The position numbers and the translations under genes were made by a program. A stretch of 23,224 nt of DNA from a virus, in IMG/VR virus record IMGVR_UViG_3300005913_000098, positions 1 to 23,224 of that record; one strand, written 5' to 3'. Positions 1,874 through 5,401 of the stretch are shown in pieces; the first letter of the stretch is position 1, and every line of letters begins with the position of its first letter. Under the pieces are notes generated by a model. The model did no database searches. It was not told where the DNA came from and worked only from the letters and a program-made list of their open reading frames with translations.

Positions 1874-2071
1874 TTACCTATTCCAAGATTGTTGTCTTAT
1901 TTTTGCGCGTTCTTCTTCTTGTTTCACAAACTCAACTAATTGCATAACATAAATCTCTCTCTCCCAAGGCATCATGGTATCAAGTTCACTGAGTGAATAA
2001 TTATGATGCTGCATCATAGCAAAATTCGTCTTGTAGTGGTTTACAAGCGAATCATGGGAGAGGCCTACCCG
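1874..2071 (-). CDS. -1 frame extension of gp26 (gp51-like tail-assembly chaperone part)
   Basis: This stretch would otherwise be a roughly 195-bp gap between the gp26 and tape-measure genes. Read in the -1 frame from the slippery site near the gp26 stop, it is open for 65 codons and ends in TAA at 1876-1874, 4 nt before the next ATG. The peptide contains a MPWEREIYVMQLVEF segment followed by a Glu/Arg/Gln-rich helix (KQEEERAKIRQQ) and ends SWNR. From memory this resembles short 'gp51 baseplate hub assembly catalyst' entries in cyanophage T4-like genomes. Internal ATG codons exist, but none has a clear Shine-Dalgarno sequence, which favours production as a fusion with gp26 of about 296 residues. 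Expression as a separate small protein remains possible. Confidence 0.72.
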   Translation of the reverse strand, partial: RVGLSHDSLVNHYKTNFAMMQHHNYSLSELDTMMPWEREIYVMQLVEFVKQEEERAKIRQQSWNR

Positions 2072-2763
2072 AAAAAATTTGCAAGACCCTTTAACTCAAA
2101 CTCATTAACTGTACCACAATTGGAACAAGTATATTTGACATCATGTTTAAGCGAAGGCATGCTCTGGAAGAACTGCTCGATCTTTTTAAACTGAGCAGAG
2201 TTCAGTGAGTCTACAAACGCTTGTAGTTCTTGTGGAGTAGAATCTTTGGCAGGGTATACATTATTTTCGTCAAAAATCATTTCAATTGAATTAACAACTG
2301 TTTTCATAACCGCTTCTATACCTTCTAACTTAGATATCTTTTGAGCATCTTCGACAGTAGGATACCTTAGTTTGATTCCGACCTTATCGGTCAACATAAT
2401 CTTACTATCGAATTCAGTACCTTGTACTTCTAATGCATCTAGATTAAGTTCGTACTCGTTACTCTCTTCGCAGTTAGAACACTTTAGGTTAATTTTAGAT
2501 ACTTCCCCGACAGACTTTGATCTCAACTTTAAAAACAAGTACTCTAGGTCAAATGTAGCAAGTTGTTTAACTTGAAGTTTGCCAAATGTACATGCGTCAA
2601 TAACATCTTGCACTGCTCTTAATATTTGCGATTGATCTTCGCTTTCCATAGCAAGCATCAAAACCTTTTCCTCTTTAACGAGGTAGGGTCTGTATGTAAC
2701 TTCTTTCTGTGTAGATGGGATCTTTACAGAATATTTGGGTGTATCGATTACGGGTAATGCCAT
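2065..2763 (-). CDS. gp26: gp26-like baseplate hub / tail-assembly protein with two CxxC pairs
   Basis: This 232-residue protein begins with a beta-rich N-terminus (MALPVIDTPKYSVKIPSTQK) typical of the T4 gp26 baseplate family (T4 gp26 is about 208 residues). Two CxxC knuckles, C95/C98 (CSNCEES) and C213/C216 (CSNCGTV), are each followed by an EYEL or EFEL strand. They could form one split zinc ribbon or two small ones. The start has a good Shine-Dalgarno sequence (AAGGA) and a late promoter 37 bp upstream. The last codons contain a TTTTTTC slippery site, so part of the product is probably extended by 65 residues. That gives this gene the short/long architecture of tail-assembly chaperones, which bind the tape measure and help tube polymerisation. 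Confidence 0.82.
   Translation of the reverse strand: MALPVIDTPKYSVKIPSTQKEVTYRPYLVKEEKVLMLAMESEDQSQILRAVQDVIDACTFGKLQVKQLATFDLEYLFLKLRSKSVGEVSKINLKCSNCEESNEYELNLDALEVQGTEFDSKIMLTDKVGIKLRYPTVEDAQKISKLEGIEAVMKTVVNSIEMIFDENNVYPAKDSTPQELQAFVDSLNSAQFKKIEQFFQSMPSLKHDVKYTCSNCGTVNEFELKGLANFFG
2071..2077 (-). promoter_or_regulatory. Candidate -1 ribosomal frameshift slippery heptamer TTTTTTC
   Basis: On the minus strand the final gp26 codons read GCA AAT TTT TTC GGG TAG. T TTT TTC matches the X XXY YYZ slippery rule; the overlapping A AAT TTT does too. Shifting back one base reads CGG GTA GGC and stays open for 65 codons. A weak Shine-Dalgarno-like AAAGGG (2092-2087) lies 9 nt upstream, a distance similar to the stimulator in dnaX-type frameshifting. 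A small GGG/CCC hairpin can be drawn immediately downstream, but it lies too close to the slippery site to be convincing. Confidence 0.75.
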
Positions 2764-2809: not shown

Positions 2810-3478
2810 TTAAAGTCCGAAGGTTCCTGCAACTGTATCAGCAATTCCACCAGCAATTCCAGTAACTGTATCAACAAGTCCTTCTACCACGAAGTTCTCG
2901 TATGTTAGGTTAACCGTCACTTTCTGAATACTGTTCTCGGCAGTGTTATCTAGGTTAATAGCATTAATACCAGTAGGATATGCGTTCTCTAGGCGAACAG
3001 TGTATATTGGGATGTTCTGTTTGTTTAGTTGAGCAATTCTGACGTCGGTTACATATTCGCTCTTATAGTTCATAGTATAAGTGTCGATATTAAATACCAT
3101 ACCCATCCATTGATCAAACATCTTTCGCATATAATAATCATTGGTCAACAAGAAAGTAAACGTGACGTCTTCATTGATATATGTGTATGGAACTTTGATA
3201 GATTGCTTTACGTTCTGCATATCAATCGTCGTGATTGCGCGCCCAGGCAGGGTGCAACTCTCACATAACATAGCAACATCTCTGGGGTCGTTTATAAGAC
3301 CTCCTAACGACAAACCATTTCCAGACAGTACTCCGACTGCAAGGGCGTTTAAGTCAAGATTCAGTAAACTGCCCGATGGAGGTTGCATATAAACCATGAA
3401 TCTATTAGAGTTAGCAAGTCCTTGGCGTTTGCTGAAGATTCCTTTTAGTTCGTCGATATCGCTTCCGAGTAATGACAT
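2810..3478 (-). CDS. Tail-tube-family protein (gp19/gp54-like)
   Basis: This 222-residue protein has a hydrophilic helical N-terminus followed by beta-rich sequence. It carries the tube-family pattern of a 'C.. CTLPGRAITT' segment (about residues 85-95), a long FTFLLTNDYYMRKMFDQWM stretch, and a late YPTGINAI turn before a final strand. T4-type tube proteins share this fold: gp19 forms the tube, and gp54 starts polymerisation on the baseplate. Since the neighbours are baseplate and tape-measure genes and no sheath gene is present, a gp54-like initiator role is plausible. The length (222) lies between gp19 (163) and gp54 (320). An AGAGGA ribosome binding site lies in the end of the upstream gene, 8 nt before the ATG. 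Family assignment is firmer than the choice between gp19 and gp54. Confidence 0.65.
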   Translation of the reverse strand: MSLLGSDIDELKGIFSKRQGLANSNRFMVYMQPPSGSLLNLDLNALAVGVLSGNGLSLGGLINDPRDVAMLCESCTLPGRAITTIDMQNVKQSIKVPYTYINEDVTFTFLLTNDYYMRKMFDQWMGMVFNIDTYTMNYKSEYVTDVRIAQLNKQNIPIYTVRLENAYPTGINAINLDNTAENSIQKVTVNLTYENFVVEGLVDTVTGIAGGIADTVAGTFGL

Positions 3479-3480
3479 TA

Positions 3481-4077
3481 TTATAGTCCTCTACTTATTT
3501 TATATGAGTCTTTCCAGACTGCGGTTTTTGTGCTCTTAGCAAATTGCTCAGTTGGTAAGAATATCGCGATCTCCCATTCTGGTGGGCGAACCAATACAAT
3601 TTTTGAATCTATCTGACTACTAAGATAATGTTTGAAACAAGGTTTAAACTCTCGATACTTACGAACACTCTTGAGTAAGTCGTACCTCATTTTAAACCTA
3701 GTACTTTCATCAAATTTATCATTAGTAAGAGTACCACCAAGGCTGTCTAAGAACGAAGCCCGTACCGTTGGTTTCAGATAGTGTAGATTTAATCCGTAGA
3801 AACCGCCCGGAGCCTTTTCAACCATTATTGTCAATGGGAATTGGTCATAGTACGGAAGTTTCTCTCGATGTTTAGGATCATAAAAGAACATATACATGTT
3901 ACCCCAGATCGCCCTAGACTTCATGATCAATGCTTCATCCTTTAGCAATTGATTTCTATTGACCTTGCCTAGTTCCTTAACTTTTTGACGGAACCATACT
4001 TTAGCATCATCGCTGCGTGGGTTTATTCCCGCTCGAAATGCTGCTTGTTCTAATTTATAAAATAATGATTCTGCCAT
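3481..4077 (-). CDS. Conserved T4-like virion assembly protein next to gp4 (possibly gp2-like)
   Basis: This 198-residue protein begins directly after the gp4 stop codon with no spacer, so translation is probably coupled. The N-terminal helix (residues 1-50) is basic. A distinctive central block contains MFFYDPKHREKLPYYDQFPL, then a GGFYGLNLHYL motif and an Arg/Lys-rich helical segment. I recognise this pattern as conserved in cyanophage-like T4 relatives but am not certain of the name. A DNA end protector (gp2) is one annotation I associate with such a neighbour of gp4. Neither catalytic residues nor membrane segments are visible. A neck or packaging role beside gp4 is inference. Confidence 0.6.
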   Translation of the reverse strand: MAESLFYKLEQAAFRAGINPRSDDAKVWFRQKVKELGKVNRNQLLKDEALIMKSRAIWGNMYMFFYDPKHREKLPYYDQFPLTIMVEKAPGGFYGLNLHYLKPTVRASFLDSLGGTLTNDKFDESTRFKMRYDLLKSVRKYREFKPCFKHYLSSQIDSKIVLVRPPEWEIAIFLPTEQFAKSTKTAVWKDSYKISRGL

Positions 4078-4524
4078 TTATTTTCCTAGTATTTTAATTC
4101 CAAGACCCTTTAAGGTATCTTCTGTCCACACAACAAACTTCCACCCCCGAGTCATACAATATTCTTCAGCAGCATCCCACTTAGATTGGTTCTTAACATA
4201 TGTCATAACCTCAGTAATATACTTCCTAGTTTTACGAGCAGGTTGCGCGGGTGGTGTAGTTTCTTTCTTTGGTTTAATCTCAACCAAAAATGTTTGCCCA
4301 TTTGCCATTTTCATTTTAACGTCTACAAAATATCTATGTATCTTATTATCAGTCTTGCATCTGTATGGTATGACAACTTCTTCAGAACTCCATTTTAGAA
4401 CCTGATCGTTTTCTTCGCACCACTTAAACACCTGTCGTTCCCATAGGGAACGGAAATATACCTTAGTAGAGTCCCCATCGTACTTATCATGTCGTTTAAT
4501 TGGGTATCTGCCGGAGTATGCCAT
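4078..4524 (-). CDS. gp4: gp4-like head completion protein with nuclease-fold motif
   Basis: This 148-residue protein matches the size of T4 gp4 (150), which completes DNA-filled heads before tail joining. A PD-(D/E)xK-type pattern is intact: an N-terminal FRSLWERQVF helix with E29, then D68 in YFVDVKM, and E82-x-K84 in VEIKPK. This resembles TnsA-like endonuclease cores. Whether it cuts DNA is not shown by sequence. It is the first gene of the leftward operon. Its start codon overlaps the rightward late promoter by one base, and its leader of about 28 nt, read from the leftward late promoter, lacks a recognisable Shine-Dalgarno sequence. Confidence 0.83.
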   Translation of the reverse strand: MAYSGRYPIKRHDKYDGDSTKVYFRSLWERQVFKWCEENDQVLKWSSEEVVIPYRCKTDNKIHRYFVDVKMKMANGQTFLVEIKPKKETTPPAQPARKTRKYITEVMTYVKNQSKWDAAEEYCMTRGWKFVVWTEDTLKGLGIKILGK

Positions 4525-4531
4525 ATAAATA
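4524..4531 (+). promoter_or_regulatory. T4-type late promoter (TATAAATA), rightward, for gp48 onward
   Basis: This is an exact TATAAATA on the plus strand, whose first base belongs to the gp4 start codon. With T4 spacing transcription would begin near 4537 and give a leader of about 40 nt before the gp48 ATG at 4577. It faces the leftward promoter at 4559-4566. Confidence 0.72.
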
Positions 4532-4558
4532 ATATATAATGTTGTGTATTCTTACAAC

Positions 4559-4566
4559 TATTTATA
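4559..4566 (-). promoter_or_regulatory. T4-type late promoter (TATAAATA), leftward, for the gp4 operon
   Basis: The minus strand reads TATAAATA here, and transcription would begin near 4553. The leader to the gp4 ATG is about 28 nt. The element itself lies inside the leader of the rightward transcript. Confidence 0.72.
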
Positions 4567-4576
4567 AGAGAAATCC

Positions 4577-5401
4577 ATGATAGATTTTAATAAAAAAAAT
4601 GATACAGCAAGGTACATGTATCCAGAAGATATATCAAATTACCCAAAAATGGCAATTGAAGTTGTCACGGGGGATTACCCAACTTCTGTATTTCTACCGA
4701 TACCAATTGGAATGCCTATACAAGATGGTATGTCATATGGGTCTAATAACCTCAATCAGATTGGCGCTATAGCTCAAGATGTTTTGAACAGTGGTGGTTC
4801 GATAAATTCAATTGGAAATAGTATAAGTAAGATGAAGAATGAACTTGCCGCTTCGAATGATTCTACCACAAATACAGCTGCACTTGCGATGATTGCGCAG
4901 AAGAACGGCATGGGAGCACTTGCGGGTGGTGATACGGGCAAAGCGATTGCAGAGGCAGTGTTATACAACAAGAGAACATTGCTTAACCCGAATCAAGTAA
5001 CAACTTTCAATGGTTCTAACACACGGTCATATTCATTTGAATTTAAACTAATTGCGACTAGTCAGAAAGATAGTGATACCATAAGGAATATTCTTGAGCG
5101 ATTACGACTTAATGCATACCCATCTGGTAATAGGTTTACATTGAAATATCCATCAGAGTTTAATATTAAGGTTCTTAATAGAGACGACACTGTCAATAAG
5201 TATTATTCACCTACATATAATTGTTTCTTACTCAGTATGAGTTCTTCTTATAATACGACTGCTAACTCTTTCTATAAAGACGGAGCACCATTAGATGTTA
5301 CTCTATCACTACAGTTTCAAGAAACTAAAGCACTTACACGAGAAGATATCGAAAAGATGCATTCTGATAGGTCTAGTATGCCAGATAACTTTTACATCTA
5401 A
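4577..5401 (+). CDS. gp48: gp48-like baseplate tail-tube cap protein
   Basis: This 274-residue protein starts in a short N-terminal segment with a MYPEDISNYPKMAIEV pattern. A middle helix- and Ala-rich region (about 65-135) is followed by the conserved core: a FNGSNTRSYSFEFKLIA strand block, a helix (SDTIRNILERLR), and a beta C-terminus with FLLSMSSSYN and a LSLQFQETKALTREDIE ending. This core is typical of the gp48/gp54 baseplate cap proteins, which top the hub and seed the tail tube. T4 gp48 is longer (364). The ATG is 46 bp downstream of a late promoter, with a weak purine-rich AAGAGAAA ribosome site. It is the first gene of the rightward block and is followed by gp53 after 11 bp. Confidence 0.72.
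   Translation: MIDFNKKNDTARYMYPEDISNYPKMAIEVVTGDYPTSVFLPIPIGMPIQDGMSYGSNNLNQIGAIAQDVLNSGGSINSIGNSISKMKNELAASNDSTTNTAALAMIAQKNGMGALAGGDTGKAIAEAVLYNKRTLLNPNQVTTFNGSNTRSYSFEFKLIATSQKDSDTIRNILERLRLNAYPSGNRFTLKYPSEFNIKVLNRDDTVNKYYSPTYNCFLLSMSSSYNTTANSFYKDGAPLDVTLSLQFQETKALTREDIEKMHSDRSSMPDNFYI

Follow-up and report, generated by a model that had tools for sequence, protein, structure and literature searches.

The stretch analysed here, referred to as the window, comprises the whole 23,224 nucleotides (nt) of the IMG/VR virus record IMGVR_UViG_3300005913_000098. The locus in question carries a gene for a protein similar to gp26 of phage T4, followed in the -1 frame by an extension similar to the tail of gp51. 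It lies on the minus strand and is read from high to low numbers; all coordinates are window positions. The locus consists of the following features:

2763-2065, minus strand: gp26-like gene, 232 amino acids, putative short form of a chaperone; PF12322, E=1.9e-66; PHROG 150 'baseplate hub', 5.6e-73
2092-2087, minus strand: Shine-Dalgarno (SD)-like AAAGGG, candidate upstream stimulator, 9 nt ahead of the slip heptamer
2077-2071, minus strand: slippery heptamer T_TTT_TTC, overlapping A_AAT_TTT
2067-2065, minus strand: zero-frame stop codon TAG, terminating the short form, read directly from the sequence
2071-1874, minus strand: -1 frame extension of 65 codons and a stop, gp51-like tail of the putative long form; PHROG 634 'baseplate hub assembly catalyst', 1.5e-26; ratio of nonsynonymous to synonymous polymorphism (pN/pS) 0.15-0.16 in relatives
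2053-2023, minus strand: predicted stem-loop, possible stimulator, ~17 nt past the slip site; minimum free energy z=-2.76 for 2070-1985

The gp26-like protein is a member of PF12322, the T4 gp26 family (224.4 bits, the curated cut-off being 24.5), and its gene ends with GGT CTT GCA AAT TTT TTC GGG TAG. The heptamer T_TTT_TTC within this end is in the X_XXY_YYZ register for tandem -1 slippage, with one sense codon separating it from the stop. The -1 frame tail reads RVGLSHD...QSWNR (codons 2071-1877, stop 1876-1874), and 4 nt lie between its stop and the ATG of the next gene (1869). A preliminary description of this DNA had pointed to the slippery end of gp26, to the 65 open codons running through a 195-bp gap almost up to a tape-measure-like gene, and to the SD-like element upstream, all of which are found as described. 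This gap is the widest between the genes checked in the window, the chance that it would hold a 65-codon open frame is ~0.007-0.01 as judged by shuffling, and gp26 alone among the 18 window genes checked has an in-register heptamer near its stop. A programmed -1 frameshift is very likely here, and with high probability it lets this locus specify both a short and a long form of a tail assembly chaperone.

A search of viral contigs in IMG/VR yielded 80 relatives, 79 of which could be scored, with 70 distinct products serving for the codon and SD counts. Of the 79, 79 have a slippery run of six or seven T in register and an open -1 frame downstream of it, the frame on short contigs being followed only up to the contig end. 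The same picture holds for 12 isolates, which span several distant phage groups (Syn1, P-SSM2, Mosig, KVP40, 6E35.1a, D479, AS-zj, phiM19, Ochrobactrum OC, Mendera, Milchi, and EniLVp02) and have both the heptamer and the -1 frame. The codon ahead of the Phe-Phe pair varies among the distinct products (AGT, AAT, TCT, GAT, and GCT, coding for Asn, Ser, Asp, and Ala), yet it ends with T in all of them, and the first Phe codon of the pair is TTT in 70/70, compared with 442/639 for the other Phe codons of the same genes. When the 3.3-kb region is compared with phage genomes at the DNA level, several of the best matches begin at ~2091, i.e., at the junction. Ackermannviridae and relatives (L091, L092, L093, and L098) have a homologous -1 tail after gp26, with the canonical T_TTT_TTY replaced by weaker sites such as GAG ATT TTC ATT TAA or CTT TTT CGC TAA, and because of this replacement slippage in these phages may work differently.

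Across 697 pairs of relatives, the -1 frame has a pN/pS of 0.146 in tail codons 4-18 and of 0.164 in codons 19-55, compared with 1.0-3.4 in the other frames; since the pairs share ancestry, these figures measure the size of the effect and do not constitute a formal test. Codons 4-18, which lie ahead of the usual first start codon, are selected as strongly as the remaining tail. Because this early block is conserved as protein, the ribosomes that translate the -1 frame very probably arrive from gp26. The preliminary description's fusion of gp26 to a gp51-like tail is strongly supported by this selection, as well as by the conservation in relatives and the match to PHROG 634.

Among 65 complete tails, 44 have no ATG, GTG, or TTG in codons 1-17 and 6 have none even in codons 1-25, and a good SD match accompanies 6% of the first tail ATGs, compared with 71% of gp26 starts and 83% of the positions ahead of the slip site. 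With most tails devoid of a start ahead of the conserved block and of an SD, independent initiation of the tail was rejected. It is improbable that gp51 is a protein separate from gp26 and translated from its own start, perhaps by reinitiation past the gp26 stop, although cyanophage GenBank records annotate a short stand-alone gp51 (44 codons in Syn1), an ATG overlaps the gp26 stop in KVP40, EniLVp02, Mendera, and 6E35.1a, and the tail in the window has an ATG at codon 19. This internal ATG has no SD. In most relatives the conserved SHDSLVNHYKTNFA block comes ahead of any possible start, and it is selected like the rest of the tail. Separate translation would also give no reason for the invariant heptamer, and in T4-type phages the tail occurs only fused to a gp26-like domain.

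Less probable still is that the T run, an unbroken T6 or T7 in every scored relative, causes transcriptional rather than ribosomal slippage: six T followed by C is short for polymerase slippage, and the strict X_XXY_YYZ register, as well as the upstream SD-like element, fit ribosomal slippage. Homopolymers are also error-prone and T4 gp51 is continuous, as would suit a sequencing or assembly error, or a formerly continuous gene now decayed. Such an explanation has a negligible probability and is refuted by conservation, as dozens of contigs assembled separately, as well as isolate genomes, show the same -1 relation, and the -1 frame is under purifying selection.

Signals that might stimulate a ribosomal -1 frameshift are seen most clearly upstream. 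Just 5' of the slip site, the mean energy of pairing with the anti-SD is -5.5 kcal/mol among the distinct relatives (-4.5 in the window itself), and pairing reaches -4 kcal/mol in 83% of them, compared with 16% elsewhere in the same genes; SD-like pairing is thus strongly enriched at this position in relatives as well. The predicted downstream stem-loop corresponds to a weak trend in relatives, with a mean z of -1.0 compared with +0.07 and -0.85 in control segments, and a universal downstream stimulatory fold is unsupported by these values. In the window (2092-2056) and its close relatives, the SD-like AGAGG/AAAGGG is complementary to downstream CCTCT/CCTTT, which may be due to codon constraint only. 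As a candidate pairing it was discarded, since it exceeds the shuffles by little (84% compared with 82%; 1.1% of the shuffles reach this level) and distant phages lack it.

The order tail tube, chaperone, and tape measure is standard for the genes of long-tailed phages, and the gp26 locus is flanked by genes resembling the two outer members of this series, the tape-measure call being weak:

3478-2810, minus strand: gene of a tail-tube-like protein, upstream of gp26; PF23849, 1.6e-8; PF06841, 1.9e-6
1869-148, minus strand: tape-measure-like gene, 573 amino acids, presumed client of the chaperone; weak PHROG tape-measure match, 6e-5

The homolog of the downstream gene in L007 gives tape-measure PHROG matches of 6e-12 and 9e-12. 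At the sequence level, the short and long forms have a common N-terminal gp26-like domain, and T4 holds the same pair as two genes. The structure predicted for gp26 has a mean predicted local distance difference test score (pLDDT) of 87, and among the PDB matches listed for its fold the highest Foldseek probability belongs to the HK97 tail assembly chaperone, 2ob9 (0.47 and 0.33 for its chains, with E=1.6 and 3.1). Taken together, the gene order and the analogy with other phages make the role of a tail assembly chaperone likely for this locus.

Several observations weigh against the interpretation as a frameshifted chaperone. The downstream gene is assigned as a tape measure by weak profile matches and by its position, and no similarity to T4 gp29 is detectable in its product. 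The likeness of the gp26 fold to that of HK97 gp13 falls short of significance (E=1.6), and RNA structure downstream of the slip site, with the z values given above, is not conserved across relatives.

In Aeromonas phage AS-zj (L094), a region of ~2 kb past gp26 (3205-5235) has no annotated gene; it contains the -1 tail and, at the place of the tape measure, an open frame of 622 codons. Near the tail-tube gene of the window, a gene at 4524-4078 on the minus strand matches a TnsA-like endonuclease N-terminal domain (PF08722, 6e-19) and occupies the position of the gp4 head completion gene in the gene order of relatives. Rfam and tRNA searches of the window gave no matches.

The sequence, its conservation, the selection on the -1 frame, the lack of a plausible independent start, and the complementary gene content of T4-type phages were computed directly; the slippage itself, its rate, and the chaperone function are what we infer. 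In the proposed mechanism, the majority of ribosomes would terminate at TAG, yielding the 232-residue gp26-like short form, whereas a minority would pause at the upstream SD-like element, and perhaps at the downstream hairpin, and then slip back by one base on T_TTT_TTC. The latter would add 65 codons, yielding a long form of ~296 residues with the gp51-like tail. As in lambda gpG/gpGT, the domain common to both forms would coat the tape measure protein, whose gene follows immediately downstream, and the long form, being the rarer, would recruit tail tube subunits through its tail domain.

The likeness to lambda gpG/gpGT and related chaperones of long-tailed phages lies in the short and long forms that a single locus would produce through a -1 slip close to where the first gene ends, as well as in the position of the locus between the tail tube and tape-measure genes. 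Lambda slips at a heptamer other than T_TTT_TTC. A PDB sequence search with the gp26-like domain gave no match to a solved structure, and the fold match to HK97 gp13 is sub-threshold.

According to the PRFect paper (PMC10885494), citing Vladimirov, Gautam and Davidson (Virology 2022, 566:9-15), some T4-like phages dispense with the frameshift and encode the short chaperone and the fused long one in a gene each; the phage Adele paper (PMC12846349) cites the same work for poly-T slippery sequences known in T4-like short-form genes. Compared with the T4-like chaperones as these two papers cite them, the present case is an uncultured phage related to the marine T4-like ones, probably with the frameshift form. 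The idea of a frameshift-linked chaperone is thus less new than the preliminary description held, matching the published T4-like assignment as cited there, and because the principle has already been published for T4-like phages, the gain consists of confirmation, extension, and annotation repair. The chaperone locus of Vandenendeviridae and Andersonviridae, described for phage Adele, is similar in having a conserved poly-T -1 frameshift ahead of the tape measure and differs in belonging to other phage families and in its GTTTTT motif; its second part is mostly mis-annotated as a hypothetical gene (PMC12846349). By its profile, the tail in the window matches 'gp51' of marine T4-like phages (PHROG 634). 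Public annotation of this tail is inconsistent, with none in Synechococcus phage ACG-2014b and a separate short gp51 in Syn1, both of which are probably cases of a mis-annotated frameshift product.

T4 gp26 and gp51 belong to the same PF12322 family, and gp51 bears the same tail domain, but their genes are separate, lie on opposite strands, and have no slip site. T4 gp51 contains the full PF12322 domain plus a tail, with its C terminus matching the tail profile, and therefore equals the long form, whereas T4 gp26 gives no match to that profile. Thus, of the preliminary suggestion that gp26 and gp51 are parts of one chaperone, the short/long relation stands, while gp51 does not correspond to the T part alone; T4 gp26 and gp51 are equivalent to G and GT and not to G and T. 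T4, EnC07, and ESh16 (Tevenvirinae) each have two PF12322 genes, with neither a slip site nor a -1 tail at the end of gene 26, whereas in 14 other genomes there is a single copy and the -1 tail comes after it. The slippery run is lost in T4-type gene 26 because Phe-Phe is preceded by GAA or GAG and begins with TTC; gene 25 comes next. A tree joins T4 26 with 51 (97/92), as expected from duplication, although both are long branches and the tree program warns that their grouping may be false.

On balance, it seems fairly probable that T4-like phages (Kyanoviridae, KVP40- and Aeromonas-type Straboviridae, alphaproteobacterial phages, and Ackermannviridae) ancestrally had one frameshifting 26-51 locus and that a gene duplication took its place in the T4 subfamily alone, where one copy would have lost the tail and the other would have fixed it in frame. 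If this is true, the stand-alone cyanophage 'gp51 baseplate hub assembly catalyst' does not exist as a separate protein. Frameshifting probably supplies a large group of marine T4-like phages with its tail chaperone pair and would account for the lack of a proper start in the short 'gp51' gene of many cyanophage annotations. The locus also offers a natural experiment, in that one branch would make the short/long pair by frameshifting whereas T4 would owe the same pair to a gene duplication.
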